Virus record (IMG/VR): IMGVR_UViG_3300020459_000026
Span: 1-40,662 of that record
DNA from: a virus
Strand: one strand, 5' to 3'
Length of the DNA: 40,662 nucleotides
Below are positions 250 through 32,756 of this stretch, piece by piece. Made by a program: the position numbers and the translations under genes. Below the pieces are notes generated by a model. The model did no database searches. It saw nothing but the letters and a program-made list of their open reading frames with translations, and was not told where the DNA came from. Numbering within the stretch: the stretch's first letter is position 1; every line of letters starts with the position of its first letter.

Positions 250-262
250 GGTAAAAAGTCTA

Positions 263-4448: not shown

Positions 4449-7400
4449 ATGATAACCACTGGGTTTGATGCTAAAGTAAAAATACAGCAAATAATTGAGA
4501 ACCAACTGCCAGAATATCTTCTGTCAGAAAGTCCTAAAGCTGTTGAATTTTTTAAACAATATTATATTTCGCAAGAATTTCAAGGTGGTACTATTGATAT
4601 TATTGATAATTTAGATCAATATACAAAATTAGATAATTTAACTCCAGAAGTAATTACAGATACTGCTACTCTTTCCGTTGGTATCAGTACAATTAGTGGT
4701 GGTACTGCAAATGATCCTTTAATAGTAAATGTTAGTAGTACAAAGGGATTCCCAGAACAATACGGTCTTTTTAAGATTGATGATGAGATTTTTACATATA
4801 CAGATAAAACTGCTACTACTTTTACGGGTGTTATACGTGGATTTAGTGGTGTAACTGAATATGATACTGATAATGATAAAGGAGAGTTAGTATTTTCATC
4901 TTCTTCAGCAGCAACACATGCTTCTGATTCTAAAATAATCAATCTTAGTAGTTTATTTCTAAAAGAATTTTATAAAAAGATTAAATATAGTCTTACACCT
5001 GGATTAGAAGACTCACCTTTTGTTAAAGAACTTGATGTAAGTAATTTTATAAAAGAATCAAGGTCTTTTTATGAAGCAAAAGGTACTGAAGAATCTTTTA
5101 GAATATTATTTGAGGTGTTATATGGTGTTAAACCAAAAGTAGTAGATTTAGAACAATTTCTTGTAAAACCGTCTTCTGCAGAATTTATTAGACGTGAAAT
5201 TGTAATTGCAGAGAGTATTTCTGGAGATCCTAATAAATTAGTTGGTCAAACTATCACAAAATCAACAGATTCTGGTACTAGGGCATCTGTATCTGAAATT
5301 GAACCATTTACTAGAACTATAGATGGAAATAATAAGACATATTATAAGTTAAGTTTATTTGTTGGATATAATGATAGGGATCTTATTGAAGGTACTTTCA
5401 CTGTTCCAGGAAAAACTAAAGTAATTGGTGATGTATCAATAGGATCTTCTGTTATTAGTGTAGATTCTACAATTGGATTTAATAATAGTGGTATTGTTAT
5501 CTCTAATGGAAATTATGTCACTTATACTGATAAAACAGTTAATCAGTTCTTAAATTGTACTGGTATAGGAACATATATCTCAACATCTGAAGATTTGCGT
5601 TCTGATGAAGTTATTTTTGGATATGAAGACGGTAATTCAGATAAAAGAGTGGAATTACGAATTACTGGAGTTTTAAATAAATTTGTTTCTATTGTTGATG
5701 CTAAATTGGCAAATGAGGGTGAAGAAATATATGTTAAAAATGTTGGTGAGAAAATATTAAATCCAGAATCTAATAAAACTAAGAAAGAAATATTCTCCAA
5801 TACATGGATTTATAATACAGCATCTAGATATCAGATAGAACCAACTATTTCTGGATCAACTTTTGTACTTTATTCAGATATTGATAAATCTGGTCTAAAA
5901 GTTGGTGATTTTGTATCACTTTTAGAGAGAAATACTCAAATAATTGTAGAACATAATAGTCAAAAGTTATCAACTCTTGAGATAGAGACCATTGTTCCAT
6001 CTACAAGAACAATCACTGTTGGTGGATTAGGTTCTTGGCAACCACCAACAAAGGCAGATGGTGGTCAATTTGAGTTTGATATAAGAAGGGTTCTAAACAC
6101 TGCATCTAGTTCTAAAACTCCAATTAAATACGGTAATAAGTTAACTTCAGATGTCCAAAATGTTTATAATGATGCTGATAAAAATCTTTATGTTTCTTCC
6201 AATTCATTACCATCATACGATCTTAAAGTAGGTGCTGCTAATACAACTACTTTAGGATTTGCTGGTGTTGGTACTATAACTGATAGAGTAGGAAATACTG
6301 ATAATTATAATACAATAGCATTCCCAAATGACGTTCCTTTTGTTACTGGTGATGTAGTTTATTACACTCCAGAAGATAAACCTATTGTTGGATTAAGTAC
6401 TGGTCAGTATTATGTAAAAGTTTTACCTAATTTTGATAATAAAATAAGACTTTATAAGTCTAGACCATTTATTTTTGCTGATAGTGATACAAAACCAACT
6501 AATATTGGTCTTGGTACTCTTGCACCTGATACAGGATCACATACATTTACTTTATTACAACAGTATGATAAACAGATAAATTCTCACAAGATATTTAAGA
6601 AATTCCCATTATCTACAAATATTAAATCTGGAAAAGAAATTAAAACAAAAGCAGGTTCGGTAGGACTATTAAAGAATGGTGTTGAAATTTATAGTTATAA
6701 GTCAGATGATACAATTACCTATGGTCCAATACAAGAAGTTACTGTATTGAATAGTGGTTCTAATTATGATGTAATTAATCCACCAAAACTAACATTATCT
6801 GCTCCCCCTCTCGGATTTACTACTGCATTAGTTCAACCAGTAGTTAGTGGTAATATCAAAGATGTTTATATTGATGTACAAGATTTTGATATTGTTAAAG
6901 TTAATTCAATAACAATATCTGGTGGTAATGGAAGTAGTGCTCTTTTAGAACCTATTTTAGCAAGAAGATATAGAAATTTAGTATTTGATGCTCGTCTTAC
7001 TACAAATTCTGGTGGTGTTGATCGTGTTAATGATAATATTGCATTTGAGACAGATCATAATTTATTAAGTGGAGAACCAGTAGTATATAATAATAATGGT
7101 AATGATAATCTTGGTATTTCAACTAATTTAGCAATTAATGTTGATACTGGACAAACATTACAAAGTGGATCTAGATATTGGCCTAAAGTAATTAATCCTA
7201 AGACTATTGAGTTATATGCAACAGAATCTGATTATTCTGCTGGTATTAATACTGTGGGATTTACAACAGCAGGTACAAGTGGTGTACATAAATTTATTCT
7301 TTTTGGTGATAAGAATACATTACAATCAATTAAAGTTATTGATTCTGGATCTGGATATACAAATAGAAAGCTAACTATAAATTCATCAGGAATTAGTACA

Positions 7401-10400
7401 GTAAAGGATACAATTACATTTACTAATCATGGATTTAGTAATAATGAAGTAATTACATATAACTATGAAACTACATCAATATCTGGTCTTTCTAAATCAA
7501 ATCAATATCGAATTATTAAAATAGATGATGATAGTTTTAGATTAGCAAATTCTGGATTAAATGCTGAAATTATTGATAATGGAACATTTACTAGTGATTT
7601 TACTGGATGGTCAAAATATGGTCCAGATGCTGTTGAGATTATTAATGGACAATTAAGAATTACTAGAACTACTGGTTATACTGGAATTGAACAACTAATG
7701 TGGGTTGTTAAAGATACAACATATAGAATAAAATATGATATGTTTGATGATGCAGGAACAGGAGTTCCCATTTTCCGTATTTCTAGTGGTGGTAATGGTG
7801 CAGGTACATTTTATGTTGATACTGGAAGTACAGGATCTCAATCATATACTTGGAAATCACCTGTAAATGGGTATGTATATGTTAATCTTATATTAGGAAA
7901 TGGTAATGGTGTTGGCAGATTTGATAATTTATCAATTAAAGAAGAAAATGCTGGAACAGATTATGATAGAAATAAATTTGTAAAATTATATGACACTGGT
8001 TCTGGATATCAATATTTTGAGTATCCATCTATAGAAATTACTGCAGATGTTGAATATTCTGCAACTTCAGTAACGAGATCAGGTATTATAACTGCAACTC
8101 CAATTGTTCGTGGTGGAATAACACAAATTTATACTTATGAAAATGGAACTGGGTATGGATCTACAATATTAAACTTTGAAAGAACACCAATACTAAGTGT
8201 AAATGCTGGTAAGGGATGTCAATTAAAACCAATCATTACTGCTGGTCAGATTGTTAATGTAGAGATACAGAATAGAGGTAACAACTATACGGCTGCTCCA
8301 GATTTAGAAGTAGTTGGTATTAGTAGTGGTATAGGTGCTAAATTAAGAGCAGAATTAACCAATGGTCAGGTTACTGGAGTTAAAATATTAAGTAAAGGTA
8401 TTGATTATAATCCCGATAAGACTTCTATTAAGGTAACTTCTCCTGGAAATGGATTAATTGAAGAATCTAAAGTTAGAAAATTAAGTATTAATAATTATGA
8501 GAGATTTGGTGGTGAGTACCTTATAGATCGTGGATCTAGTCTACAGTATTCATTTATTGGGTATTCTACATCTAAAGGATTTGCTGGTGGTATATTTAAT
8601 GATCCAGATCCAAATACAGGACATTCTCCTATAATTGGTTGGGCATATGATGGAAATCCGATATATGGACCATATGGATATAGTGATCCATTGAATAAAG
8701 ATTCTACTACTAAAGTATTACAGACTGGATATGATATTACTACAGTTACTAATAGACCTATAGGTTTTAGTAATGGATATTTTGTTCAAGATTATAAATT
8801 TAATAATTCAGGAGATCTTGATGTAAATAATGGTAGATATTGTAAAACACCAGAATTTCCTCAAGGTACATATGCATATTTTGTTGGTGTATCTACAGAT
8901 GGTCAATTAAAACCAGAATTTCCATATTTTATTGGTGATTCATATAGATCAGATCCAGTAGAAGATAATTTTGCATTAACAAATAACCAAAATACATTTA
9001 ATTTTAATAGTTCAGGATTGATGAGGAATACTCTTCCATATCAAGTATCTGAAGAATATTCTGATAATGATTTTATAATAGAATCTAATGAAGCAGTTGA
9101 ACAGATTTCAGTAATTGAATCTGTTACTAGAGGATCTGTTGATTCACTACAAATTGTTGAAGCAGGTAGTAATTATAAGGTAGGTGATAGTGCATCATTT
9201 GATAATACAGGCACTAAAGGTAGTGGTTTAAGTGCTGAAGTATCTAAAGTTAAAGGAGTACCTATTACCAATGTTACAACTAATATAACAACTTATGATG
9301 ATGTTCCTTTAGTTTGGAATAATGAAAATGAAATATCTGCATATATTGCAACTTCTCATAATTTAATAAGCAAAGATATAATAACATTATCTGGGGTTTC
9401 TACTACATTAGCAGGGATTAATGAACAAAATTATCGAATAGGAGTAACTACATCAGTTGCAATTCTTTATAAGGATCTTCCAGCAAACTCTACTGTTGGT
9501 GTTGTAACTGATATTTACTTATCAACTATACCAAATTCTATTTCTGTTGGAAGTAGTATTGGTATAGGAACTGAAAGATTGAGTGTTCTTAATGTCTTTG
9601 ATGAAAGAAGTATTTTAAGAGTAAAAAGAAATTCTAAATTAGGAGAAGCTTCTACGGTTTCAACAAGAGTTGAAGAAATTCCATCTTATTTGACTATTCC
9701 TGCAAAATCTAAGTATTTTGATTCTAAAGTAAATGATATTGTGTATTTCAACCCCAAGCAATCTATTGGTCTTGGAACAACTGCTGGTATTAGTACTTCA
9801 GTTAATTATTCTTATGGTGAAATTAATGAAGTAATTTCTATTCAACATCAAAGTTTATATTTACCAAATCATCCATTTAAGAATAGTCAAGCAGTAACAT
9901 TTACAACACCAACTGGTACTATACCATTATCTGTAAAAGATACACCTACTGGACAACAGTTTAACGTACCTGCTGCAGGATCTACACAAACTTTATATGT
10001 AATTAATAAATCTAAAGATTATATTGGACTTACTACTCAAATAGGATCAACTACAAGTACAGATGGTCTATATTTTGCAACTAATGGTTTAAGTAATTTT
10101 GAGTATTCATTAACCACAAATTATACACAAAAAAGAGGTAGAATTGATAAAATAGTGGCAAAAGTCACTGTTTCTGCAGAACACAAATTATCTAATCAAG
10201 ATGTTGTTAAATTAACAGTTGTTCCTAATCAATCTGTTGGTATTGGTACTTCTACAGGCATATATGTAAAATATATTCCAGATGAGGATATAATAGTAAC
10301 TAATCCAGTAGGGTTTGGTTCTATTGCTGTTAATACTAATGGTGGAAATATAACCATACCTGATCACCCATTTAAGACAGGAGATAAAGTATTTTATGAT

Positions 10401-13400
10401 GGTATTACTGGATCTCCTTCAGGAATATCTACTGGTAAGTATTATATCTACAAAAATGATTCTAGAAATATTAGAATTGCTGAGACATATAAGGATGCTA
10501 TTAGTGGTAACATAGTAAGTCTTGGATCTACTGGTGGAATAACACAAGAGATATCAAAATTGCATCCACCAATAAAAGTTCTTAGAAATAATAACTTAGT
10601 TTTTGATCTTTCTGATGCTTCTCTTTCTGGACGTGAGTTTAAGTTATTCTATGATTCAGAATTTAAGAATGAATTTGTATCTACAGGATCTACTGATAAC
10701 TTTGTATTGACTGGAGTTGGAACACCTGGAACTACTGGTGCAACATTAACATTAAGATATACTGCAAATAATCCACAAACTCTTTACTATAATCTTGAAA
10801 AATCTGGTTATATTAGTACATCAGATGTAACATCTAAGCATAATTCTTCAATTGTTTATGGTAATAGTTCATATAACGATTATTATTCAATATTTGATGT
10901 AACTTCAACAACTTTTGATATTCCATTAACTGGACTTCCTGAAAGATTAGATTATACACAATCTAATACAGAAACACTAAAATATTCTACAAATGCATCT
11001 ACTGCTAGAGGTGGTGTTGATACTATGAATATAGCCTTTGGTGGTTATGGATATAAGAGATTACCATCTTTTGTAAGTATTGCATCTACTCAAGGATCAA
11101 ATGCAGAATTACTACCAACATCTAAAAAGGCAAATAAGATTAATGAAGTAAGAATTAAGGATCCTGGATTTGAGTATTCTTCAGATCAAACTTTAAGACC
11201 AGAAGCATTTGTTTCTCCAGTAATTAGTGTAGTTAATTCTGATGCAATTGAAAAAATTGATATTGTTAGTGGTGGTAAAAATTATACTGCTGCTCCAGAT
11301 TTAGTAGTTGTAGATCCTAATACAGGAACTAAATCTACTGAAGGAATAATAGAAAGTACATTGAATGGAACTTCTATTAATAAAGTTAATATTATAGAAT
11401 CTCCTAAAGGATTAACTGCTGTAGAACAATCTATTAAAGCAATTAATAATACTAACGGATTTGCAATTAGAACGGTCACTGGACCTGCCACAACAGGTAG
11501 TAGTGGTCTTATAACAGTTGAGTTAGTTACACCTGTTCTAGGGTTTAATACAACACCTCCACCATTTGTTGTTGGTGATAAAATATTTGTAGAAGGTATT
11601 GTTTCTAATACTGCAGCAGAAACTGCATTAAATGTTACTGATATTACTGGATTTAACTCAGAAGATTATAAGTATAATTTATTCCCAATAACAGCATTTA
11701 ACAATCTTGCTGCTGGAGCACAAGTTACATACGATGTTTCTGGTATTTTAACATCAACAAGACCAGGAATTGCTGTTACAGCACAAAATTCTTATGCATT
11801 TGTTGTTAGAGCAGATGATTATCCAACATTTAAGGTCACACAAAATTCTGGTGATTTCTTAATGGGTGAAGGTCTTTTAAGAAGAAACACTTTCGGTACA
11901 TATACTCCTATAGATTTGATTATTAAGGATAGTAATAATAATCAAATTAAAATTAAGGGTAGTACCATATTAAAGTCTGGTGATGTAATTAGAGGACGTG
12001 TTAGTGGAAATACTGCAACAATTAACACGATTGAAGATAATATTGGTAGATTTGATATCGATTATTCACTGAGACAAGATAAAGGATGGATTAATGATAT
12101 TGGTAAATTAAATCAAGATTTCCAATGTTTACCTGATAATGATTATTATCAAAACCTTTCATACACTGTTCAGAGTCCTATAACATATGAAAATATTGCT
12201 GATCCAGTAAATCGTTTATTACATACTAGTGGACTCAAAAACTTTGCTGATGTTGGTATTGGTACAACTGTTGCTTCAGAAGCAGGTCTTACAAGTACTA
12301 CTAATGCTACAACAGTAGTTCGTGATATTTTTGGTGAAGAAAGAGTAGATACGATTTATAATTTTGATCAAGCAAAAGACATTGATGTTGATGCTACTGG
12401 AACTAAATCTAAATTTGTAAAATTAAAATCAACAAAATTAACAGATTATATTGAATGTATATCTAATAGAGTTTTGGCAATTGATGATTTTAGTGATACA
12501 TTCTCTAATTCTGAAAGTAGATTATCTGGATATGTTGATACACTTATAGATTCTTCTACTGCTAATTATTTGGTACAAATTAGAAATCCAAGTACTAATG
12601 ATATTCAGGTTACTGAATTGGAGTTATATCAAGATTCTGATGATATATTTACTGTTGAAACATCTAATTTATACAGTACTACTAATCCTTTGGGTGAATT
12701 ATTGGGTACAACAAATAATCAAGGTAGTCCAATTATAAGATTTAAGCCAACTGATACATTTGATAGTGATTATGATCTTAAGTTTGTTAAAAATACTTTC
12801 AACAGTTCTTTAACTGGTATAGGAACATTATCATTTGGATTTGTAAATCTTGTAGGTGTTAATACAACTGTTGGTGTTGGTACTACAGTTTCTTTAGTTT
12901 CTGATAGTATTGTTGATATAGAATCCTATTTTGTTGAAGTTGAAGTTGTTAATCAAACTCAAGATGAAAAGAATATTGTTGAGATATATGTAACTCATGA
13001 TGGAACAAATACTTATCTAGCAGAATATTATTCTGGATCAAGTAATATTCCTTCAGTTTCGTCTAATTTTATAGGAACTTTTGCTGCAAACATAACATCT
13101 AATGTTCTTTCATTAAATTTCAATAACGATACTTCTGATGAAGTATTTGTAAGAAGTAGAGTAGTTGGATTTGGTACTACTGCTGCTGGTATTGGAACTT
13201 ATAGGATGAGAGAAGCAGGTCAAATTGCTGGAAGTGAAAGAACTCTAATGATGGAGTCTAATCACAGTATTATTTCTAATGCAAGTGCTTCTACTGCATA
13301 TCAACTTCCTACTGTTGGTATTAGTTCAACTCTTATTACTACTGTTAAGAGTTTGGTTAAGGTTTCTACTGGTTCTACCATAGCAATGCATCAATTACTA

Positions 13401-16400
13401 TTGACACATGATAGAACAAGTACTTACTTAACACAATATCCAATTATATCAGTTGGATCTACTACTGGCATGGGTAAATTTGCTGCATCATATGTTGGTA
13501 CAGGTAATACTCAAATAAATGTAAGTTTCCAACCAGATCCAGAAGTTGCTGGAAATAATATTGATGTTCAGAGATTGGATGAGTTAATATACACTACCAG
13601 TGATCTATTGAATGATGCTCCTCCATTAGATTATGGAACTGGAAGAAAACAACTCAATTTAGCTGCTTATGATGGTATTAACGGTGATAGAGCAAATAAA
13701 TTTAACTTTAATGCAGAATATAATGGAACACCTATTTTTGCAAAAGAATTTAATCCAGGAATATCCACATTCTTAAATGCATCTACTGGAATCTTTACTA
13801 TTAAAGATCATTTCTTTAGAAATGGTGAAAAATTAAACTATACACCAAAATCAACTTGGACTGGAATTGCTGCAGCAGGTATACAAACAGCATCTGGTGT
13901 AATACCTTCTGAAGTTTATGTTATAAGACTTGATAAAGATAGATTTAAACTTTCTGTTTCTGGTGTGGGTGCTACAGCATCAACTCCATCTGCTATGACT
14001 TATACCAATACTGGTTCTGGTAATGCACATACACTTGAGATGGATAAGAAGTTATCTAAGAGTTTATTATCAATAGATGATGTTATACAATCACCAGTTG
14101 CATATTCTCATGTAAATACGGCATTAAATGGTAATGGTGGATCTATTACTGCAACAGAAACAGTTTTTGCAGTTGTTGGTATATCTTCACTTTCTGTAAA
14201 AGATTCAATTAAAGTTGGTAATGAATTTATGGATATTACCAATGTTGGTATGGGTACACTTTCTACAGGTCCAATTAGTGGTATTGGAACTTTTAATTTA
14301 GTAGAAGTTTCAAGAGGTCATTATGGATCTACAGCAAGTTCTCATAACGATGGAGTAACTGCAAGAGTTTATACTGGATCCTATAATATTGTTGGAAGTG
14401 AGATTTGGTTTGCAGATGCACCTAAAGGTAATTCTAGACAATTACTTGATCTTTCAGATTTACCTACAGGACGTTCTAGTTTTAATGGAAGAGTATATTT
14501 AAGAAATGATTATACTCATAATAAGATCTATGATGATCATTCTGATGCATTTACTGGTATAGGTGCTACTTATAGAGTACAGGTAGAAGGTGCTAATGTT
14601 ACTGGTATACAAACTGGAAGTAGTGTTGTTTTAATGAATGGTATTTTCCAAAAACCATCAACATCAAATAATCTTGGTAATAATTATGAATTTGCTGAAA
14701 GTGTAGGTGTTTCAAGTATTGTTTATACTGGTATTACATCATCAAATGGTGCATTGGTTATAAATGAGTCTGATGTTAACCAGAATCAAGTTCCTCGTGG
14801 TGGTTTAATTGTTTCTGTTGGTTCAACTGGAGGATTGGGTATTGCACCTCTTCATGGTGCTAGAGTAATGCCTATAATGGGTTCTAATAAGTCAATATCA
14901 TCTATTGTTGGTATAGGAACTACAGGTGCTGCTCTTGGTATTACAAGTGCTGTTTATAATAATATAACTGGTGATTTAGATATTACTACCAGTTTAGAAC
15001 ATAAGTTAAGCACTCCAAATGAACTTGTTAAGTTGGTTGGATTAGAATTTACATGTTCTTCAAGTTATGCTGGTTTAACAACTACAATATTCCCTGAAAG
15101 TGTTTCATTCCCATTAGCAAGTGGTGTTGGAACAGCATATCCAATTGTTGGTGTTAATTCTGCATTTGGATTTAGATGTAACGTTGGTACAAGCACTATA
15201 ACTCATACTTACGTTGGTTCTGGTACTGCGTTCCCGTACTTTAGTGATTTAGATTGGGGTCAGGGTTATCGTAATATTGGTGTTGATTCTGTTGGAGTTG
15301 GAACTACTGCTGTTGGAGTAACTGTTTTAGATCAAGCATACGCACATAAGTTTGTAACTGCTGCTAGTAACACAATTATTGTTAAGGCAAATGGTGGACC
15401 TGGAAATAACTCAACACATCAACCTTCATTTGTTTCATATGCATCTACAAGTGGAAAATTAATATTAACTGCAAATAATCATGGTGCTCTTGTTGGTACT
15501 TCTCATACAGCAACTACAGGAACTACATATGATCCTACATGCGGTATAATGACCGTTAAATTAACTGCTGCTCCAGTAATTCCAATTGAAACAGGACAGT
15601 TAATTAAGATTGCTGATAAAGGTATATCATTTAGTTGTAATTTTGGTTCTGGTGGAACTAAGGCATATCCAAGATCTAGTGATCCTTTAAGTGGTAGATG
15701 GATTGGTATTACAACTACTGCAGTAGATACTTTCTATGTTAATGTTCTTGATCCGAGTGGGGATCGTGGATCTTTAATTCCTTCAACAAATACAGATGCA
15801 CACACATTTGCAAGTGCAATTACGGGTGCTATTACTCTATCTGTTAATAAAATTGAATTATCACCTAGATCACTTACATTTACATGTGATAGAGATAATC
15901 ATAAGACAAAACATACATATCCTCGTCCATCTGATCCTTCTCATGGAAATAATCTTAATATTCTTGAAGCAACAGACAATACATTTACTGTTAATGTTGG
16001 TGCAGGTGGTGGTGCTGGATCTGGAGCAGTTGTAACTGCTGAAGTTGTACCTAATTTACATATATTCCTTACTAGAGATACAAATTGTATTGGTATTTCT
16101 ACAGGTGGTAGTGGAAATATAACACCTTCTATTGCTGCAGGAAATGTACCTTCATATGATCCTGCAACAGGAAACATAACATTTACTAAATCAGGTCATC
16201 CTCTAATAGCACCAGGAGTTGCTCAAACAGCAACAAATGCTGCATATGATCCAAGTGTAGGTATTGTTACTATAACAACTCAGACAGCACATGGATACAC
16301 TAGTGGAGACTTTATACAAATAGCAGAAAATTCATTAACATTTAAGTGTGCTCAAGATAGTAATGCTACAAATCATTCATATCCTAGACCAGCATCAAAA

Positions 16401-18701
16401 GATAAAGGTGCTGATCCTATTCATAATAAGTGGATACAAATCTTTAATGCATCTGGAACACAGTTTGAAATTCAATGTTTAACAACTGGTGTAGGAACTG
16501 CTAGTCCGTCTACCAATACAACTGCTCATACATTTGTATCTGCTATAGGTGGTGGAATTACAAAAGCAAATAGTACGATTATAATTGCAGATAATTCTGT
16601 AAGGTTCTCTTGTGCTCAAGATAATCATGGATCTAGTCATTCATATCCTCGTTTAACAGATCCTCAACGTGGTAGATCAATAGGTATTGCTGCTACTACA
16701 AGTACAACATTTACAGTTAACGTAGGAAAATCTCCTGCAGGTACTGGTGGTGCTCTTAAATTTGATGTTAAGAATGCAGGTAGTGGTTATGTAAATCCAC
16801 GAATTGTAGTTGATCAACCAACTTATGAAGGTCTTGAATTTAAGGGTATTTCTAGATTAGGTATTGGTTCTACAACTATTCTTGGTACTGGATTATTACT
16901 TGACTTTGCAGTAGGTGCTGCTAGAACAACTGGTATTGGTTCTAACATGAACGAAGTACGTTCATTTAAGATTGCTAGAAGTGGTTATGGATTTAAGATT
17001 GGTGATGTTCTAAAACCAGTTGGATTAGTTACTAGTAGATATTCCAATTCTTCACAATTATTGAGTGATTTTGAACTTACAATAACTGATACATTTACTG
17101 ATAAATTCTCTTCTTGGAACTTTGGTGATATGGATCAAATTGATAGTATTCTTAATTATCAAGATGGTGTTAGAACCAGATTCCCACTAAGATATAATGA
17201 AGATTTATTGAGTGTTGAAAGGAAAGAAGGAGATTCTGATTCTCAATTAATAGATTTAGATACTGTACTATTAATCTTTATAAATGGAGTACTTCAGAAT
17301 CCAGGTGAAGCATATACATTTGAGGGTGGATCAACAATTCTATTCTCAGAAGCACCAGGAGTAGAAGATAGTGTTTCAATATTCTTCTATAAAGGATCTA
17401 CTAATAATGATAGTTTATTAGTTACTAATATAAATGAGACTCTAAAACTTGGAGATGATGTTGCATTATTGAAAAATAATGGAATTAATACTACAGTAAA
17501 TCAAGATACTAGAGTAATATCTGGTATAGTAACTACTGATACTATTGAAACAACATTATATGTTGGTGAAGGTATTAATAAAAAAGATTGGAAATCTTTA
17601 AGTTGGACTAAGCAAAAGAACGATATAATCATTAATGGTGAAATTTATGCTAAATCTAGAGATTCTCTAGAAACAATGGTATTCCCAACTGCTAGAATTA
17701 TTAAGGATATATCAACAACTGATACTACATTCTACGTGGATGATGCTAGTCAGTTTAAGTATGAGCAAAATAGAGGTGATAATGACCCTGTAGATTTTGA
17801 TGGAGTATTGTTTAATACACCGACTGTTGTTGCAACTGCTGCTTCCTTTACATCAGTAGTTTCTGCAGCAGGTACAATTGCTTCAATTAATATTACTAGT
17901 GCTGGTAGTGGTTATGTTGGATCAACAACTTCTATATTAATAAGTTCCCCAACATCTTATACGGGAGTAGGTGTTACTGATGGATTTATTGGTATTGGTA
18001 CAACTGCTAGAGCAACAGCAACAGCAACAATAACTAATGGATCAATTGCTTCAGTAGCAATTACTAACGGTGGATTTGGATATACAACGGCAAATTTACC
18101 ACAAACACTTATTTCTTTACCAACTGGTATTAGAGAATCTGTTGATGATATACAATCAGTACAAGGATTTACAGGAATTATTACAGGAATATCAACTGTT
18201 TCTGGTACTGGTAGTCACCCATTAGCAATTAAATTTGAGGTTGTTGAAGAATCTGGTTCTACGTTCTCAGATTTATCTGTAGGAGATGCTATTTTTGTAC
18301 ACGGAACTTCTGTTGGAAACGGAGTTACGACTGTTGATAGTAAGAATGCAGATACTGTGGGAATTGGAACTACATTTATTGATAATATATACTATGTTCA
18401 TGCTATTAGTGGTAGATCTATTACTAGTAATGTACATTCTGGCATATCAACAGTCGGACTAGGTACAACAGCATCACAGGGTTTACCTTTAGGTAGATTC
18501 TCTTGGGGTAAGATAATAGGAATAGGTAGATCAACTCCTCCAATTTCTATAGGAGTAACTGGTTATAGTATCGATTATTCCTTTGATAATAGTATTAATA
18601 CAACACATGACGGAATTGCTGGATTGTCCACATTCCCGATATTCCAGAGGCGTGGTACTGGCCTACGAACTGGTGGTGGATTCCAAAAGGAAATTAGCTA
18701 G
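4449..18701 (+). CDS. 7: Giant virion protein in the T4 gp7 position (4750 residues)
   Basis: A single uninterrupted frame encodes 4750 residues, over four times T4 gp7 (1032). Lying between gp6 and gp8, it is best read as the gp7-type wedge scaffold; this rests on synteny and on terminal motifs. Visible parts: residues 1-60 with PEYLLSESPKAVEFFKQYY; a turn module at 85-143; a helical block at 170-245 (FIKESRSFYEAKGTEESFRI); a carbohydrate-binding-like insertion at 1043-1168; a YHYH-like motif GWAYDGNPIYGPYGY at 1397-1411; a conserved KGWINDIGKLNQDFQC...DNDYYQN block near 2545-2600; six cysteine-containing repeats at about 3531-4097; and WNFGDMDQIDSILNYQDGVR near 4220 with INGVLQNPGEAYTF near 4280. 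At least twenty G-I/V-G-T/S strings are scattered through it. No signal peptide or membrane segment. Start ATG 4449 lies 3 nt after the gp6 stop. Confidence 0.8.
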   Translation: MITTGFDAKVKIQQIIENQLPEYLLSESPKAVEFFKQYYISQEFQGGTIDIIDNLDQYTKLDNLTPEVITDTATLSVGISTISGGTANDPLIVNVSSTKGFPEQYGLFKIDDEIFTYTDKTATTFTGVIRGFSGVTEYDTDNDKGELVFSSSSAATHASDSKIINLSSLFLKEFYKKIKYSLTPGLEDSPFVKELDVSNFIKESRSFYEAKGTEESFRILFEVLYGVKPKVVDLEQFLVKPSSAEFIRREIVIAESISGDPNKLVGQTITKSTDSGTRASVSEIEPFTRTIDGNNKTYYKLSLFVGYNDRDLIEGTFTVPGKTKVIGDVSIGSSVISVDSTIGFNNSGIVISNGNYVTYTDKTVNQFLNCTGIGTYISTSEDLRSDEVIFGYEDGNSDKRVELRITGVLNKFVSIVDAKLANEGEEIYVKNVGEKILNPESNKTKKEIFSNTWIYNTASRYQIEPTISGSTFVLYSDIDKSGLKVGDFVSLLERNTQIIVEHNSQKLSTLEIETIVPSTRTITVGGLGSWQPPTKADGGQFEFDIRRVLNTASSSKTPIKYGNKLTSDVQNVYNDADKNLYVSSNSLPSYDLKVGAANTTTLGFAGVGTITDRVGNTDNYNTIAFPNDVPFVTGDVVYYTPEDKPIVGLSTGQYYVKVLPNFDNKIRLYKSRPFIFADSDTKPTNIGLGTLAPDTGSHTFTLLQQYDKQINSHKIFKKFPLSTNIKSGKEIKTKAGSVGLLKNGVEIYSYKSDDTITYGPIQEVTVLNSGSNYDVINPPKLTLSAPPLGFTTALVQPVVSGNIKDVYIDVQDFDIVKVNSITISGGNGSSALLEPILARRYRNLVFDARLTTNSGGVDRVNDNIAFETDHNLLSGEPVVYNNNGNDNLGISTNLAINVDTGQTLQSGSRYWPKVINPKTIELYATESDYSAGINTVGFTTAGTSGVHKFILFGDKNTLQSIKVIDSGSGYTNRKLTINSSGISTVKDTITFTNHGFSNNEVITYNYETTSISGLSKSNQYRIIKIDDDSFRLANSGLNAEIIDNGTFTSDFTGWSKYGPDAVEIINGQLRITRTTGYTGIEQLMWVVKDTTYRIKYDMFDDAGTGVPIFRISSGGNGAGTFYVDTGSTGSQSYTWKSPVNGYVYVNLILGNGNGVGRFDNLSIKEENAGTDYDRNKFVKLYDTGSGYQYFEYPSIEITADVEYSATSVTRSGIITATPIVRGGITQIYTYENGTGYGSTILNFERTPILSVNAGKGCQLKPIITAGQIVNVEIQNRGNNYTAAPDLEVVGISSGIGAKLRAELTNGQVTGVKILSKGIDYNPDKTSIKVTSPGNGLIEESKVRKLSINNYERFGGEYLIDRGSSLQYSFIGYSTSKGFAGGIFNDPDPNTGHSPIIGWAYDGNPIYGPYGYSDPLNKDSTTKVLQTGYDITTVTNRPIGFSNGYFVQDYKFNNSGDLDVNNGRYCKTPEFPQGTYAYFVGVSTDGQLKPEFPYFIGDSYRSDPVEDNFALTNNQNTFNFNSSGLMRNTLPYQVSEEYSDNDFIIESNEAVEQISVIESVTRGSVDSLQIVEAGSNYKVGDSASFDNTGTKGSGLSAEVSKVKGVPITNVTTNITTYDDVPLVWNNENEISAYIATSHNLISKDIITLSGVSTTLAGINEQNYRIGVTTSVAILYKDLPANSTVGVVTDIYLSTIPNSISVGSSIGIGTERLSVLNVFDERSILRVKRNSKLGEASTVSTRVEEIPSYLTIPAKSKYFDSKVNDIVYFNPKQSIGLGTTAGISTSVNYSYGEINEVISIQHQSLYLPNHPFKNSQAVTFTTPTGTIPLSVKDTPTGQQFNVPAAGSTQTLYVINKSKDYIGLTTQIGSTTSTDGLYFATNGLSNFEYSLTTNYTQKRGRIDKIVAKVTVSAEHKLSNQDVVKLTVVPNQSVGIGTSTGIYVKYIPDEDIIVTNPVGFGSIAVNTNGGNITIPDHPFKTGDKVFYDGITGSPSGISTGKYYIYKNDSRNIRIAETYKDAISGNIVSLGSTGGITQEISKLHPPIKVLRNNNLVFDLSDASLSGREFKLFYDSEFKNEFVSTGSTDNFVLTGVGTPGTTGATLTLRYTANNPQTLYYNLEKSGYISTSDVTSKHNSSIVYGNSSYNDYYSIFDVTSTTFDIPLTGLPERLDYTQSNTETLKYSTNASTARGGVDTMNIAFGGYGYKRLPSFVSIASTQGSNAELLPTSKKANKINEVRIKDPGFEYSSDQTLRPEAFVSPVISVVNSDAIEKIDIVSGGKNYTAAPDLVVVDPNTGTKSTEGIIESTLNGTSINKVNIIESPKGLTAVEQSIKAINNTNGFAIRTVTGPATTGSSGLITVELVTPVLGFNTTPPPFVVGDKIFVEGIVSNTAAETALNVTDITGFNSEDYKYNLFPITAFNNLAAGAQVTYDVSGILTSTRPGIAVTAQNSYAFVVRADDYPTFKVTQNSGDFLMGEGLLRRNTFGTYTPIDLIIKDSNNNQIKIKGSTILKSGDVIRGRVSGNTATINTIEDNIGRFDIDYSLRQDKGWINDIGKLNQDFQCLPDNDYYQNLSYTVQSPITYENIADPVNRLLHTSGLKNFADVGIGTTVASEAGLTSTTNATTVVRDIFGEERVDTIYNFDQAKDIDVDATGTKSKFVKLKSTKLTDYIECISNRVLAIDDFSDTFSNSESRLSGYVDTLIDSSTANYLVQIRNPSTNDIQVTELELYQDSDDIFTVETSNLYSTTNPLGELLGTTNNQGSPIIRFKPTDTFDSDYDLKFVKNTFNSSLTGIGTLSFGFVNLVGVNTTVGVGTTVSLVSDSIVDIESYFVEVEVVNQTQDEKNIVEIYVTHDGTNTYLAEYYSGSSNIPSVSSNFIGTFAANITSNVLSLNFNNDTSDEVFVRSRVVGFGTTAAGIGTYRMREAGQIAGSERTLMMESNHSIISNASASTAYQLPTVGISSTLITTVKSLVKVSTGSTIAMHQLLLTHDRTSTYLTQYPIISVGSTTGMGKFAASYVGTGNTQINVSFQPDPEVAGNNIDVQRLDELIYTTSDLLNDAPPLDYGTGRKQLNLAAYDGINGDRANKFNFNAEYNGTPIFAKEFNPGISTFLNASTGIFTIKDHFFRNGEKLNYTPKSTWTGIAAAGIQTASGVIPSEVYVIRLDKDRFKLSVSGVGATASTPSAMTYTNTGSGNAHTLEMDKKLSKSLLSIDDVIQSPVAYSHVNTALNGNGGSITATETVFAVVGISSLSVKDSIKVGNEFMDITNVGMGTLSTGPISGIGTFNLVEVSRGHYGSTASSHNDGVTARVYTGSYNIVGSEIWFADAPKGNSRQLLDLSDLPTGRSSFNGRVYLRNDYTHNKIYDDHSDAFTGIGATYRVQVEGANVTGIQTGSSVVLMNGIFQKPSTSNNLGNNYEFAESVGVSSIVYTGITSSNGALVINESDVNQNQVPRGGLIVSVGSTGGLGIAPLHGARVMPIMGSNKSISSIVGIGTTGAALGITSAVYNNITGDLDITTSLEHKLSTPNELVKLVGLEFTCSSSYAGLTTTIFPESVSFPLASGVGTAYPIVGVNSAFGFRCNVGTSTITHTYVGSGTAFPYFSDLDWGQGYRNIGVDSVGVGTTAVGVTVLDQAYAHKFVTAASNTIIVKANGGPGNNSTHQPSFVSYASTSGKLILTANNHGALVGTSHTATTGTTYDPTCGIMTVKLTAAPVIPIETGQLIKIADKGISFSCNFGSGGTKAYPRSSDPLSGRWIGITTTAVDTFYVNVLDPSGDRGSLIPSTNTDAHTFASAITGAITLSVNKIELSPRSLTFTCDRDNHKTKHTYPRPSDPSHGNNLNILEATDNTFTVNVGAGGGAGSGAVVTAEVVPNLHIFLTRDTNCIGISTGGSGNITPSIAAGNVPSYDPATGNITFTKSGHPLIAPGVAQTATNAAYDPSVGIVTITTQTAHGYTSGDFIQIAENSLTFKCAQDSNATNHSYPRPASKDKGADPIHNKWIQIFNASGTQFEIQCLTTGVGTASPSTNTTAHTFVSAIGGGITKANSTIIIADNSVRFSCAQDNHGSSHSYPRLTDPQRGRSIGIAATTSTTFTVNVGKSPAGTGGALKFDVKNAGSGYVNPRIVVDQPTYEGLEFKGISRLGIGSTTILGTGLLLDFAVGAARTTGIGSNMNEVRSFKIARSGYGFKIGDVLKPVGLVTSRYSNSSQLLSDFELTITDTFTDKFSSWNFGDMDQIDSILNYQDGVRTRFPLRYNEDLLSVERKEGDSDSQLIDLDTVLLIFINGVLQNPGEAYTFEGGSTILFSEAPGVEDSVSIFFYKGSTNNDSLLVTNINETLKLGDDVALLKNNGINTTVNQDTRVISGIVTTDTIETTLYVGEGINKKDWKSLSWTKQKNDIIINGEIYAKSRDSLETMVFPTARIIKDISTTDTTFYVDDASQFKYEQNRGDNDPVDFDGVLFNTPTVVATAASFTSVVSAAGTIASINITSAGSGYVGSTTSILISSPTSYTGVGVTDGFIGIGTTARATATATITNGSIASVAITNGGFGYTTANLPQTLISLPTGIRESVDDIQSVQGFTGIITGISTVSGTGSHPLAIKFEVVEESGSTFSDLSVGDAIFVHGTSVGNGVTTVDSKNADTVGIGTTFIDNIYYVHAISGRSITSNVHSGISTVGLGTTASQGLPLGRFSWGKIIGIGRSTPPISIGVTGYSIDYSFDNSINTTHDGIAGLSTFPIFQRRGTGLRTGGGFQKEIS
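7575..7950 (+). other. Carbohydrate-binding-like (CBM/jelly-roll) insertion in the giant protein
   Basis: Residues about 1043-1168 read as one unit unlike the surrounding repeats. It opens DNGTFTSDFTGWSKYG, has ITRTTGYTGIEQLMWVVKDT and YRIKYDMFDDAGTG in the middle, then SYTWKSPVNGYVYVNLILGN, and closes with GRFDNLSIKEEN. The order NGxF...GW, then Y.ikyd, then v...G.vyi.l..., then fDNlslkE, is the signature of CBM4/9-like beta-sandwich domains and of related phage modules. The fold is inferred from pattern only; ligand binding is not shown. Confidence 0.65.
8628..8700 (+). other. YHYH-like motif in the giant protein
   Basis: Residues 1397-1411 read GWAYDGNPIYGPYGY, close to the G-A-D-G-P-I-Y-G-Y core of YHYH-domain proteins found in bacteria and in cyanophage virion proteins. 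The upstream sequence (SFIGYSTSKGFAGGIF) and the downstream sequence (IGFSNGYFVQDY, and GTYAYFVGVS) fit the rest of that domain, so it likely extends over about residues 1355-1480. The function of the domain is not established. Confidence 0.6.
15030..16740 (+). repeat. Block of cysteine-containing protein repeats in the giant gene
   Basis: Six related units occur in translation. Cores are EFTCSSSY, GFRCNVGT, SFSCNFGSGG, TFTCDRDNHKT, TFKCAQDSNAT and RFSCAQDNHGS. Each of the last four is followed by a YPR motif, a DP, a W/I-I-x-I strand and T-x-F-x-V-N/Q. Between units the phrases AHKFVTAAS, AHTFASAITGAIT and AHTFVSAIGGGIT recur. The four clearest cores fall at about residues 3728, 3813, 3967 and 4055, so spacing is uneven (about 85-155 residues). 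Each core has a single cysteine. Confidence 0.75.
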
Positions 18702-18725: not shown

Positions 18726-20324
18726 ATGGCTGCACAGGTAACCGATCAATTTAGAATATTAAACGCTAATAACTTCATCGAAAGTGTGGAGAATAATGCA
18801 AATTCTTATTATGTATTTGTTGGATTAGCAAATCCAGGATCTGGTACTAATGATCCACAGGTTGGTTTTGGTAGAACCAGTGCGTGGGATACAAATACAC
18901 CAAATCCAGTAGATAGTATTAATTATATTAGCCATTATCAAGACACTATGATGTATGGTAAGAGAGTTAATAGTGAAAATATAAGAAGATTAATTAAAAA
19001 ACGAGAATGGTCTAGTGGTGAGCAATATGAAATGTATCGTCATGATTATAGTGTAGAAAATCAATCACCTATAACTAAGAAATCTAGGTTATATGATACT
19101 ACTTACTATGTAATGAATAAGAATTATAATGTATATGTTTGTATTGATAATGGATCATCTGGAATCAATACTACAGGTAATGCATCTCAAGATGAACCAT
19201 TATTTACTGATTTAGAACCTTCTAGAGCTGGTGAAAGTGGTGATGCTTATATTTGGAAGTATTTGTTTACAGTACCTCCTAGTGATATTATAAAATTTGA
19301 TTCTACAGAATATATTACTGTGCCTAATGGTTGGTTAACTTCAACAGAATCTCAAATTCAAGCAGTTAGAGATAATGGTGATTCTACTATAAATAACAAT
19401 CAGATTAAAAAGATTTATATTGATAATCAAGGATCTGGTTATAAAAATGTTACTGATAAAGAAGTTGATATATTAGGTGATGGTACAGGTGGTAAATGTG
19501 TTATAACAACAGATTCTGCTGGTAAAATAATAAAAGCAGTTGTATCTGCTGGTGGTAGAGATTATACTTATGGTATGATAGATTTAGGTGTTCTTGATGG
19601 TGGTAATATCACTATTAGAGCAAAATTAATACCAATAATACCTCCAGATAAAGGTCATGGTGCTAATGTATATAAAGAATTAGGTACTGATAAAGTATTA
19701 ATATATTCTAGATTTGATGATAAGAATAAAGACTTTCCAATAGATACTAGATTCTCACAAATAGGGATTGTTAAGAATCCAACATCATATGGATCAACAT
19801 CTACTTATACTGCAAGTGAATTTTCTTCGTTAAAGGCACTTAAGTTTAGTCCTTCTGGAAATTATGATACAAATTATCCAAGAATTGGACAAGAAATTCG
19901 TCAACCTTTAGGATCTCCTGCTGGTGCTGCTGGAACTGCTTATGGTTATGTTGCATCATGGGATAAAGAAACTGCGGTTCTTAAGTATTTCCAAGATAGA
20001 TCATTATATTATAATTCAGTACTTGCGGATCAAACAGATTATGGAAATGTAACTAAGGAAGCAAAAGTTCTACCTTTTGAATCTTCAGGAACATCAGTAA
20101 TTTCTGCAAATTTTACTGGATCACTTGAAACTACATTTACTGGTATTACTACTACTTCTATCACAACTAATAAGATTATTAGTTTAGGTACTCAGTTTAC
20201 TGCAGGTATTTCTACTGAGGAGATAAATAAAGGATCAGGGGAAGTTATTTACATAGATAACAGACCTTTGGTTCCACGTAATACACGACAAAAAGAAGAC
20301 GTTAAAATCATCCTGGAATTCTAA
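18726..20324 (+). CDS. 8: Baseplate wedge subunit gp8
   Basis: The 532-residue protein opens AAQVTDQFRILNANNFIESV, followed by SYYVFVGLANPGSG and a NYISHYQDTMMYGKRVNSEN block, as in gp8 of T4-like cyanophages. T4 gp8 is shorter (334 residues). The first 190 residues include IKKREWSSGEQYEMYRHDYS and YVMNKNYNVYVCIDNGSSG. IWKYLFTVPPSDIIKFDS is another recognisable family element. Residues about 235-285 hold two GxGY-type repeats (DNQGSGYKNVTDKEVDILGD and VVSAGGRDYTYG), which are also present in the giant protein, gp14 and the DUF4815 protein and may account for some of the extra length. In T4, gp8 dimers sit at the wedge periphery and contact gp7 and gp10. The ATG follows a late promoter; the stop abuts the next ATG. 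Confidence 0.87.
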   Translation: MAAQVTDQFRILNANNFIESVENNANSYYVFVGLANPGSGTNDPQVGFGRTSAWDTNTPNPVDSINYISHYQDTMMYGKRVNSENIRRLIKKREWSSGEQYEMYRHDYSVENQSPITKKSRLYDTTYYVMNKNYNVYVCIDNGSSGINTTGNASQDEPLFTDLEPSRAGESGDAYIWKYLFTVPPSDIIKFDSTEYITVPNGWLTSTESQIQAVRDNGDSTINNNQIKKIYIDNQGSGYKNVTDKEVDILGDGTGGKCVITTDSAGKIIKAVVSAGGRDYTYGMIDLGVLDGGNITIRAKLIPIIPPDKGHGANVYKELGTDKVLIYSRFDDKNKDFPIDTRFSQIGIVKNPTSYGSTSTYTASEFSSLKALKFSPSGNYDTNYPRIGQEIRQPLGSPAGAAGTAYGYVASWDKETAVLKYFQDRSLYYNSVLADQTDYGNVTKEAKVLPFESSGTSVISANFTGSLETTFTGITTTSITTNKIISLGTQFTAGISTEEINKGSGEVIYIDNRPLVPRNTRQKEDVKIILEF

Positions 20325-23300: not shown

Positions 23301-26300
23301 AGATTTGGATATGATATACCACATTTAAAAAATGGTTTAAGAGCATCAGATACTATTGATTTTAGACCAAGAGTTGAAAACTTTACTGCGACTAATACAT
23401 CACCATTTTCTTTCTTTAATAGAAATTGGGCAAGTTCTGGAAATAATCCATCATTAGTTGTTAAATCTGGTGAAGCATCAACAGTTGGATATCAACATTA
23501 TCTACCAAGAACTGATAAAGTTGTTCTTAGTACTAGTGGTGAGTTTATGGTTACTAAAGGTTCATCTTCTATAGATCCTAAAGTACCAGAAACTGTTGAA
23601 AATTCAATGCATATGGCAACTATTGAGTTGCCACCATATCTTAATAATACAGATGATGTAAAGATATCTCTAGTAGATAATAGAAGATATACTATGAGAG
23701 ATATTGGTAAAATTGAAGACAGAGTTGAAAATTTAGAGGAATTAACATCTTTATCATTACTTGAATTAGATACAAAAACTTTAGAGGTAAAAGATTCTCA
23801 AGGATTGAATAGATTCAAGACTGGATTCTTTGTTGATGATTTCAAGGGTAACAAATTTATGGATATAAGTGATCCTGATTGTACCTGTGATGTTGATGTT
23901 GTAAAACAAGAATTAAATGCACCATTTGATAGATATTCAGTCAAACCACAACAAGCATTAGATCCTTCCATAGATTCATCTACTGCTGATTATAGTGCTG
24001 ATCTTAAGTTATTAGATCCTAATTTGAGAAAAACTGGTGATATGATCACCTTAAATTACGATGAAGATGAATGGATTGTTCAAGCACAGGCATCGAGAGT
24101 TGAGAATGTAAACCCATTTAATATTGTTGTATTTAATGGAAGGATTCAATTAAATCCAGCATCTGATACATGGGTAAGAAATGTAGTAGTTCAGGGTGGT
24201 GGAAGAACCATTACTGGTCCATCTGCTGGTAGTTTTGTAACAGAGACTAGAATAAGTAGTGAAGTAGATACTCATATTAGGTCTAGAAATGTTCAATTTG
24301 GTGCAAATGGATTAAAACCATTTACAAGATACCATTCATTCTTTGATAGTACTGCTGGTATTGATTTTGTTCCTAAATTGGTAGAAATTTCTATGGTTAG
24401 GGGTGTATTTACTGCTGGAGAAACTGTTGAAATTTCTGTTGGTGGTAGTACAATAGGTATATTCAGAATTGCTCAACCAAATCATAAATCTGGGGATATT
24501 AATAATCCTCAAGTATTCTATTCTAATAATCCATATGATACTGCAGTTACTTTACCATCTTCATATGCAGCATCTTCGACTGTATTAAATGTTGATATTG
24601 CATCATTAGCAGATGAAACACAATCTGGATTCTGGGGATATCTTCATTCTGTTGGTGCAACTATTGTAGGTAGAACTAGCAATGCAGAAGCAACTGTAAG
24701 TGACCTCAAATTAATTTCTGATACATTTGGTGATATACATGGATCATTCTTCTTCAGAGATCCATTAGCAACTCCACCTCCAACAAATAGATGGAGAATT
24801 GGTACCAAGACATTTAAGTTATCTTCTAGTTCTACTAATGCACAGAATGTACCAGGATCATCATTAATTAGTGATGCTGAAGCACCTTATACTACTCGTG
24901 GTATTGTAGATACATTCCAGCAGACTAATATTGAAATTAGGATGCCACCCCCACCTCCAGAACCAATTATTATTAATAATACATTTGTAACTAATGAAAT
25001 AACTGAAGTTACTAATGTTACTAATAATATAACTGAAGTAACTCAAATTATTAGGGAAGAACAACCAGCACAACATGATGACCCCTTAGCACAAACATTT
25101 AGAGTTACTGAGGCATTCCCTGATGGTGGATTCTTAACTTCTATAGAATTTTATTTAAGAACTATAGATGAAACTCAACCATTAAGAGTTGAACTTAGAA
25201 AAGTTGAACTTGGATTACCAACAGAAATATTGGTTCATGATTATACTCAAAAAACACTTTATCCAGATGCAACAACTGATGGTCTTGCAATGCAGACTGA
25301 TAGATCTAATGCAGTACTTAAAACTTCTGCTGATGCATCAGTTGCAACTAAAGTAACTTTTGATTCACCAGTTTACTTGAATAGTAATGAAGAATATGCT
25401 TTTGTTCTATTAGCACCTACATCAGATAAGTATGAGGCATGGATATCACGTATGGGTGATAAGACTATTGATACACAGAATTTACCAGATGGTGAGAGTG
25501 CAATAGTTACACGACAATACTTAAATGGTAGTTTGTTTAAGTCTCAAAATGGTAGTACTTGGACACCATCACAGTTTGAGGATCTTAAATTTAAGATTAA
25601 TAGATGTAAGTTTAAGGCAAATCTAGGAACTCTTTTCCTTTATAACCCAAGTTTAGGAAAACAAAATAACATAAGTCAAAGATTATTACCAAATCCAGTT
25701 AAGACTCTTCCTAGAAAACTTAGAGTTGGTATTAATACTCTTTCAGCATCAATATCAGGTGATATACTTGTCCCTGGTAGAAAAGTAACTGAGGGTACAC
25801 AACCAGGACCAACTGGAATAATAGAAGATATTGGTGGACAATGTAAGTCTGTTGGTTCTTCTATGCTTTCACTTGGTTCTGGATATCAACCATCATTAAC
25901 TGATACTGATGTTGATACCTTTGCCGTAACAGGAGGAGGAAAAGGTCTTAAAGTTAAATTAGCAACTGATGGAAATGGAGTACCTACTGTATCTTTAGTA
26001 GGTGCGGCTTTAAGTGGTACTGGTTATAGAGTAGGTGATATTATAGGAATTACAACATCTAGTTTAGCTACATCAAAAGGTACTGGTGCTCAATTTAGTA
26101 TTAATACAATTGGAAATACAGATACTTTATACTTGACTAATGTTCAAGGTAAAGAGTTTTCAACTGGTGGACATATTAAGTGGTTCAATGGTATCACTCC
26201 TACAGCAGGATCTGGATCTACTGCAGTTACTTCTTCTACAGTAGTTAGTGGAATTTATACTGGTAATGTACTTGAAGTTGAGCATTATAATCATGGATTA

Positions 26301-27608: not shown

Positions 27609-27610
27609 TT

Positions 27611-27811: not shown

Positions 27812-27823
27812 AGGTCATGCTAG

Positions 27824-27831: not shown

Positions 27832-27858
27832 TATTCTAGATCCTGATAATTTTTATAA

Positions 27859-30298: not shown

Positions 30299-30301
30299 AC
30301 A

Positions 30302-30529
30302 ATGAACAATCCTAATAATGACGTTGATGTGAATGCTTTGATTAAAATATACAATCAGAAGATTGCTACATTAACCAACCAAAATATAATTTTGGAAGCA
30401 AAGGTAAGTACTTTGCAGCAAGATTTTTTTGATGAAAAAAAGGAACTTACTGCAAATCTAGCAGAATTGCAAGATAAGTACGATAACCTACTAGCAGAAA
30501 TAGAGGAAGATGGCGAAACCAGCAACTAG
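30302..30529 (+). CDS. Short coiled-coil protein upstream of gp13 (75 residues)
   Basis: After a short asparagine-rich start, residues 12-70 have the heptad-like pattern of a coiled coil: ALIKIYNQKIATLTNQNIIL, then LEAKVSTLQQDFFDEKKEL and LAELQDKYDNLLAEIEED. No other domain is visible. It begins 3 nt after the fibre gene stop and its last 20 bases overlap the start of gp13. It could be an oligomerising connector or chaperone for the fibre or neck; the sequence does not decide. Confidence 0.75.
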   Translation: MNNPNNDVDVNALIKIYNQKIATLTNQNIILEAKVSTLQQDFFDEKKELTANLAELQDKYDNLLAEIEEDGETSN

Positions 30530-31349: not shown

Positions 31350-31355
31350 TAAGAT

Positions 31356-32756
31356 ATGGCATTAAATCCCTTCTTTCTGCAAGGATCTCAGAGTGAGCAA
31401 AGACTTGTTCAGGATCTAATTAATGAACAACTCATGATTTATGGAGTTGAGGTAACTTATATTCCAAGAAAAATGGTGAATAGAAGTACCGTCATTGAGG
31501 AAGTAACAGCATCTAAATTTGATGATAATTTTTTACTTGAAGCATATGTAAATACATATGAGGGATATGGTGGACAAGGAGATATAATGACCAAATTTGG
31601 AGTTAGTTTAAGAGATGAATTAACTCTAACAATATCAAAAGAAAGGTTTGAGGATTTTATTTCTGCCTTTTTAGAAGTATTACCAGACGATGAAGTAGAT
31701 GTATATACTAGACCAAGAGAAGGAGACTTAATATATTTCCCATTAGGAAGTAGATTGTTTGAGGTTAAGTTTGTAGAGCATGAAGAACCTTTCTATCAGT
31801 TAGGTAAGAATTACGTTTATCAACTTAAATGTGAATTATTCGAGTACGAGGATGAGGATATTGATACTTCAATTGATGAGATTGATAAAACAGTTGAAGA
31901 TATTGGATTTATCACTACACTTCAATTAATTGGAGCAGGTGTTACTGCTACTGCTAATGCTGGATTAAGTCAGCCATCTGGATATATTAGAGAACTTACT
32001 CTAGTTAATGATGGAAATGGATTTACTGCAACTCCAACAATAATAATTGAAAATGCACCATCTGGAGGTGTAAATGCAAGTGCTGTTGCATTCACCACAA
32101 CTAGATCAAATATAACATCAGTTGAAAGAATAGTATTAACAAATGCTGGTTCTGGGTATACAGTTGCACCTCAAGTTACTTTTGTTGGTGGTGGAGGATC
32201 TGGTGCTATTGCAACTACATTAGTTGAAACTTCACAGAAGGGTGTTATTAATTTCACTATGACTGATAATGGTGTTGGTTATGCATCAACTCCAGCAGTT
32301 GGATTGACAACTGCACCTGTAGGTGGAATTAATGCTACTGCTGAAGCAGTTATTAGTGCAGATAATAAGGTTACTTCTATTAGGATTACAAATCCAGGAA
32401 TGGGTTATACTGTAACACCAACAGTTACTATTGCAGATCCAGTTACTTTATCTGGACTTGGTACATATCTATATGGAGAAACTGTAGTGGGTCAAACATC
32501 TGGATGTAATGCTGAAGTAAGAGGATGGGATGTTGATACTAAGATTCTTAAGGTTACTAATGTAGGAATTGGTACTACAATTTCTGCTTTCTATCCTGGT
32601 GAGAAAATAGTTGGTACTGCATCATCCGCAAATTATTCAGTTGATACATATGATGGAAGGGATATATATGATAAGTATGATACAAACGATGAAATTGAGG
32701 CAGAAGCAGATCTGTTGCTCGATTTCACTCAATCTAATCCATTCGGACAAGTATAA
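31356..32756 (+). CDS. 14: Neck protein gp14 with large repeat insertion
   Basis: Residues 1-185 match gp14 (NPFFLQGSQSEQRLVQDLIN, VEVTYIPRKMVNR, GRQ-type FGVSLRDELTLTISKERFED, RPREGDLIYFPLGSRLFEVK, YQLGKNYVYQLKCELFEYED). The last 20 residues (IEAEADLLLDFTQSNPFG) look like the conserved gp14 end. Between them, about residues 190-435, lies an insertion of four GxGY repeats (NDGNGFTATPTI, NAGSGYTVAPQV, DNGVGYASTPAV, NPGMGYTVTPTV) plus a beta domain, making the protein 466 residues against 256 in T4. gp14 joins gp13 in the neck. Its stop overlaps the gp15 ATG (TAATG), indicating coupled translation. Confidence 0.9.
   Translation: MALNPFFLQGSQSEQRLVQDLINEQLMIYGVEVTYIPRKMVNRSTVIEEVTASKFDDNFLLEAYVNTYEGYGGQGDIMTKFGVSLRDELTLTISKERFEDFISAFLEVLPDDEVDVYTRPREGDLIYFPLGSRLFEVKFVEHEEPFYQLGKNYVYQLKCELFEYEDEDIDTSIDEIDKTVEDIGFITTLQLIGAGVTATANAGLSQPSGYIRELTLVNDGNGFTATPTIIIENAPSGGVNASAVAFTTTRSNITSVERIVLTNAGSGYTVAPQVTFVGGGGSGAIATTLVETSQKGVINFTMTDNGVGYASTPAVGLTTAPVGGINATAEAVISADNKVTSIRITNPGMGYTVTPTVTIADPVTLSGLGTYLYGETVVGQTSGCNAEVRGWDVDTKILKVTNVGIGTTISAFYPGEKIVGTASSANYSVDTYDGRDIYDKYDTNDEIEAEADLLLDFTQSNPFGQV
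31990..32445 (+). repeat. Four GxGY protein repeats inside gp14
   Basis: Four units of about 40-45 residues each carry G-x-G-Y/F-T/A-x-x-P followed by a hydrophobic strand, a glycine turn and an A-rich strand. Cores are DGNGFTATP, AGSGYTVAP, NGVGYASTP and PGMGYTVTP. The same unit is found in the giant protein, gp8 and the DUF4815 protein. Confidence 0.85.

Follow-up and report, generated by a model that had tools for sequence, protein, structure and literature searches.

A GxGY beta-repeat in several virion proteins of T4-like cyanophages forms an array inside a probable barrel of the neck protein gp14

The window, by which we mean the whole stretch of DNA analyzed here, is a virus record of 40,662 bases and represents a fragment of a T4-like marine cyanophage (Kyanoviridae). 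Its gene order (gp25, gp6, a giant protein, gp8, a DUF4815/VrlC-like protein, gp13, gp14, and gp16-19) is that of marine T4-like cyanophages (Kyanoviridae), and P-SSM2 and S-SRM01 are the nearest named relatives by gp14. The giant protein (4449-18701, 4750 aa) occupies by synteny the slot annotated gp7 in P-SSM2 and gives only a weak wedge match in Pfam; it also carries a YHYH domain (8604-8891, aa 1386-1481, E 2.6e-23). The gp8 core is present (PF09215, E 2.6e-14; phrog_438, E 2.8e-150), as is that of gp14 (PF11649, E 3.8e-33 over residues 3-179; phrog_460, E 2.3e-131), and residues 1-175 of gp14 match the solved T4 gp14 (Foldseek E 2e-5, about 31% identity). The window gp14 is 466 aa long, whereas T4 gp14 has 256 aa. 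The features discussed below are the following:

6741..6968 (+), GxGY-type units of the giant protein, aa 765-840; profile-profile 96%
8091..8348 (+), GxGY-type units of the giant protein, aa 1215-1300; profile-profile 92-95%
10971..11333 (+), GxGY-type units of the giant protein, aa 2175-2295; profile-profile 80-95%, tblastn E 2.8e-4 at 10989-11195
17886..18158 (+), GxGY-type units of the giant protein, aa 4480-4570 (support ~4415-4570); profile-profile 96-97%
19398..19640 (+), two inserted GxGY-type units of gp8, aa 225-305 (support ~195-300); PHROG, profile-profile
25857..26129 (+), GxGY-type region of the DUF4815/VrlC-like protein, aa 1845-1935; profile-profile
31356..32756 (+), gp14 neck protein (head closure Hc2), 466 aa; PF11649, phrog_460
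31902..31991 (+), first part of the array-hosting barrel, aa 183-212, followed by site A; VIA-align, array-less barrels elsewhere
31992..32123 (+), gp14 GxGY unit 1, aa 213-256; profile, model pLDDT about 86-94
32127..32255 (+), gp14 GxGY unit 2, aa 258-300; profile, model pLDDT about 92
32256..32375 (+), gp14 GxGY unit 3, aa 301-340; profile, model pLDDT 82-89
32376..32504 (+), gp14 GxGY unit 4, aa 341-383; profile, DNA period
32448..32630 (+), second part of the array-hosting barrel, aa 365-425; pattern GxYxxGExVxG..SG..AxVxxWD..T..LxV....F.PGExIxG

The GxGY repeat unit spans 41-47 residues (~43) and runs from a hydrophobic strand through GxGY...P, a short strand, and a Gly turn to an Ala-rich strand, with the signature [IVL]x[LVI]TNxGxGYTxxPxVxI...GxxATAxA and three strands per ~43 residues. 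In 1,417 units from phages and bacteria, four positions are fixed (G 98%, G 87%, Y/F 98%, P 86%), and successive units mostly lie 40-48 residues apart in phages and 37-42 apart in bacteria. With hmmsearch, hundreds of units were found, compared with roughly one decoy at 6 bits. Neither Pfam nor NCBIfam has a model for the repeat. A Pfam search of the gp14 array at E up to 1 gave no match, a result with which a diverged Ig fold remains compatible, and neither a PDB sequence search with the array profile nor a search of a plasmid collection for the repeat returned a match. The array by itself gave weak matches in Foldseek and VIA, which does not imply a new fold; filamin Ig aligned to the gp14 model at a Z of only 3.7 (68 residues over 195..361, VIA-align). 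The repeat region is contained in seven PHROG families (phrog_460, 438, 708, 2885, 701, 19630, and 5342), but these are whole-protein clusters in which the shared repeat is neither delimited nor named, as it is here. We found no description of it in the literature within our scope, subscription papers lying outside. The GxGY repeat is a real, uncurated, shared module of a kind already known, namely the promiscuous accessory beta-domain on virion proteins, while the repeat family, its insertion in a barrel, and its exchange pattern appear undescribed in the literature searched.

The first-pass annotation had claimed that the repeat is common to four virion proteins not otherwise related, with four copies in gp14, and had expected it to be absent or much shorter in T4. 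Within gp14 residues 213-383 there are four tandem units, repeating every 129 nt in the DNA and each scoring about 67-70 bits against their own profile with no decoy above 8.3 bits, in agreement with the claimed number. A profile from these four copies, the search first proposed, recovered the gp14 units and nothing significant outside gp14 among the window proteins. Since one-unit scores alone would speak against sharing, family profiles were needed, and only with these were the other proteins reached; wider iteration of the unit profile drifted to the gp14/bacterial consensus and lost the weak gp7/gp8 units. At the family level, the gp14 repeat region matched PHROGs of baseplate-wedge, tail-fiber, and further structural proteins with E-values from about 1e-23 to 1e-4, and residues 208-282 of gp8 matched the gp14 PHROG family (E 2.7e-5). 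Family alignments built from related contigs were also compared with the gp14 array profile to profile, with calibration on 143 windows of these proteins and a threshold score of at least 35, which was reached by 7/20 windows containing GxGY versus 0/123 windows without the motif. Together, the PHROG matches and the calibrated comparison bear out the sharing among the four proteins. On these sequence profiles the repeats of gp14, the giant protein, and gp8 are homologous, and those of the DUF4815 protein are likely so; in the latter, unit 1 is supported and unit 2 only as part of a pair. Among the single examples named at the outset, NRGNNYTAAPDL, SAGSGYVGSTTS, NQGSGYKNVTD, and SLGSGYQPSL held up, DSGSGYTNRKL was weak, NAGSGYVNPRIV went neither way, and LSGTGYRVGD did not stand on its own. 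The gp8 units fall in a gap of T4 gp8 in the alignment, and units of this type occur in every cyanophage gp8 aligned; the predicted gp8 model has a mean pLDDT of 39. As had been expected, no GxGY unit was found in T4 gp7, gp8, gp10, or gp14.

Beyond phages, 77 loci emerged from the 84,980 species genomes of bacteria and archaea that were scanned; this list is shaped by the two peptide patterns used and is thus not a census. Almost all encode proteins whose lengths run from several hundred residues to over 4,000, the source phyla include Verrucomicrobia, Planctomycetes, Acidobacteria, Chloroflexi, Bacillota, and others, and the bacterial proteins contain 2-42 units each. The N-termini of those checked resemble signal peptides, their arrays adjoin or separate multicopper-oxidase parts, and the giant bacterial proteins carrying the repeat are apparently secreted. 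Because the repeat is widespread in such proteins, it is not an invention of the phage cluster. Five loci (L180, L178, L187, L174, and L185) encode giant multicopper-oxidase-related proteins with 11-42 GxGY units around the oxidase domains.

In gp14, the AlphaFold2 model (21 sequences) has low confidence in the N-terminal core and reaches high confidence (pLDDT 80-94) only across residues ~190-400, which cover the array and its flanks; the array is modeled there as regular repeats with three strands per unit. Within 183..424 of this model, 66 residues aligned to a contiguous 69-residue barrel stretch of 8rk3_b, the JBD30 baseplate protein, with a middling Z of 5.7 (VIA-align); the next matches, at Z 4-5, were several barrels. 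The flanks jointly match one contiguous barrel because the array interrupts it, and in the gp14 of Syn19 and S-RIM44 this barrel is uninterrupted and has no GxGY unit. The gp14 array is inserted inside what is probably a small beta-barrel. Two array-less copies of the barrel module (GExVxG..SG..AxV....F..GExV) are also present in the DUF4815 protein at 21774-21893 and 22935-23057 (28.9 and 33.7 bits versus decoys <10).

Related phages carry the array at either of two sites. At site B it lies between 'VGEEIVG' and 'AEVKSWN/D', with two units in syn9 and ACG-2014i; at site A it lies one strand earlier, between 'LQLIGAG' and 'GTYLYGETVVG', with four units in the window, P-SSM2, and S-SRM01. S-8S56 gp14 has eight units and S-SSM7 gp14 has six plus a LamG-type (concanavalin-like) domain (L008:18486-20774; E 7.6e-6, just under the Pfam cut-off), so that gp14 arms span none to at least eight detected units. 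LamG and GxGY units also occur together in Syn19 gp7. Since Syn19-type phages with an array-less gp14 are viable, the gp14 array is not essential.

A tree of the gp14 core only, whose deep rooting is uncertain owing to long branches, placed the site-A alleles in one group (97/86), whereas the site-B alleles do not form one group (p-AU 3e-4). Array-less alleles are nested among the site-B ones, the site-B allele of contig L483 is nested among array-less ones, and the presence of the array switches several times on the tree. In L483, the nearest relatives of gp13, gp15, and most of the gp14 core lack the array, whereas those of bases ~2900-3650 (core end, barrel, array, and tail) carry it, and the middle of this stretch gave no match to array-less relatives. 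This mosaic, found on a single metagenomic contig, looks like the pattern expected from homologous exchange of the gp14 arm; L483 could also be an assembly chimera of the metagenome. A second pair that differs is S-RIM44 (empty) and ACG-2014i (site B). Alternative insertion sites, switching between presence and absence, and one mosaic are thus all found in gp14.

In T4, gp14 residues 178-256 run along gp15, and domain III of gp13 binds fibritin, the region ~190-239 being the fibritin-binding domain (PMC12270204). Cyanophage gp13 is shortened over T4 residues ~190-239, and Fibritin_C, present in T4, was found in none of seven cyanophage records, the window being a fragment. Given both observations, the arrays on the gp14 arm would project outward from the neck. 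We propose that surface loops of several T4-like cyanophage virion proteins acquired an accessory beta-repeat by insertion and that, in gp14, the barrel interrupted by the array lies in a C-terminal arm that would be the counterpart of the T4 arm contacting gp15; if gp14 is hexameric as in T4, six arms with four units each would place 24 repeats around the neck. Because LamG is found in the S-SSM7 gp14 arm and, along with repeats, in Syn19 gp7, we infer that the arrays are exposed and serve as mechanically stable spacers, which either carry adhesion functions or add to them. With no fibritin found and a gp13 without the binding domain, the gp14 arms may assume part of the role of the collar, replacing fibritin, and homologous recombination at conserved flanks may swap the arm among related phages that infect the same cell. 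That the repeat confers a common surface property, as the first-pass annotation suggested, is possible and is the part of its view that we favor.

The main rival to a role as adhesion spacers is structural bracing, in which the repeats would stabilize the neck and baseplate against neighboring virion proteins or the capsid and have no part in host contact. Bracing would suit the location of the repeats in gp14, gp8, and the gp7-position protein, which in T4 are all inner parts or form rings, as well as the packing of the T4 gp14 C-terminal arm on gp15 (PMC12270204) and the presence of units in all cyanophage gp8 aligned. However, a range from 0 units in Syn19-type gp14 to at least 8 is unexpected for an inter-subunit brace, and a lectin-like domain within one gp14 array also speaks against it, so that we regard bracing as possible but tentative.

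Two further explanations concern how the genes came to share the repeat. For 206 of 212 gp14 units, the best match lay in another virus, in the same gene and at the same position, and comparison of gp7 with gp14 units gave a mean of 1.01 in their own genome versus 1.12 in other genomes, that is, units are not closer within a genome. When checked in this way, as had been suggested, the copies cluster by gene and position, and similarity within a genome is not raised; judged by sequence, the copies in different genes are therefore old and now evolve separately. The spread between genes by recombination within the cluster that the first-pass annotation envisaged is accordingly unsupported as a current process, and its 'mobile module' survives in a narrower form, as a gp14 array that moves as a cassette between orthologous gp14 genes. 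Ongoing movement between different genes of the same phage could draw on the sharing of the module by four genes of one cluster and on the three gp14_A3 units and one A1 unit whose best match is a gp7 unit, but against the figures just given it is extremely improbable. Convergence of easily arising Gly/Thr/Ala-rich beta-repeats, with no common descent, would account for the low scores of lone units in gp8, in the DUF4815 protein, and at most giant-protein sites. It is hard to reconcile with the absence of any above-threshold score among the 123 windows of the same proteins, themselves beta-rich, that lack the motif, with PHROG E-values to 1e-23, with the excess of hmmsearch units over decoys, and with the four fixed positions, and we consider it very unlikely.

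The reading that we consider reasonably probable is thus an old accessory beta-repeat placed in loops of virion proteins, where it forms outward arms that probably act as adhesion spacers. A bolder version, in which an unnamed extracellular repeat family common to virion proteins and giant secreted bacterial proteins serves as a swappable neck arm that replaces fibritin and tunes adsorption or contact with glycans, while co-infecting phages trade gp14 alleles, seems doubtful to us. Phage Ig-like domains (I-set, BIG2, FN3) are known as accessory domains on virion proteins (Fraser et al. 2006, as cited in PMC10684548). Like them, the GxGY repeat is a promiscuous accessory beta-domain, found on unrelated virion proteins and shared with bacterial surface or secreted proteins, and it is often dispensable; unlike them, it has no Pfam match, is shorter (41-47 aa), and occurs in tandem inside the loops of another domain. 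Domain shuffling has been described in phage neck passage and tail proteins (PMC10684548), and there, as in gp14, accessory domains of neck proteins are exchanged between phages, although that case concerns a C-terminal domain of neck passage proteins in other phages rather than a barrel-interrupting array with two sites. The collar and whiskers of T4 fibritin (gpwac) project outward from the neck, as the proposed gp14 arms would, but fibritin is a separate coiled-coil protein bound to gp13, and it is this protein for which the seven cyanophage records gave no Fibritin_C match.

The uncurated repeat delimited here runs through the largest and least understood proteins of the ocean's commonest T4-like phages and connects cyanophage virion proteins with giant bacterial proteins. 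The gp14 alleles with 0, two, four, and eight units in similar phages amount to a natural experiment in which a neck-decoration role is testable. Among other gp14 proteins, those of four viral contigs (L021, L029, L040, and L058) are 546-566 aa long and have an extra insert of ~80 residues near the C-terminus, after the barrel. A cyanophage-type gp14 with array and barrel was also found on NZRR01000014.1 (L172), labeled as a Euryarchaeota MAG; most likely, a phage contig was placed in an archaeal MAG during binning.
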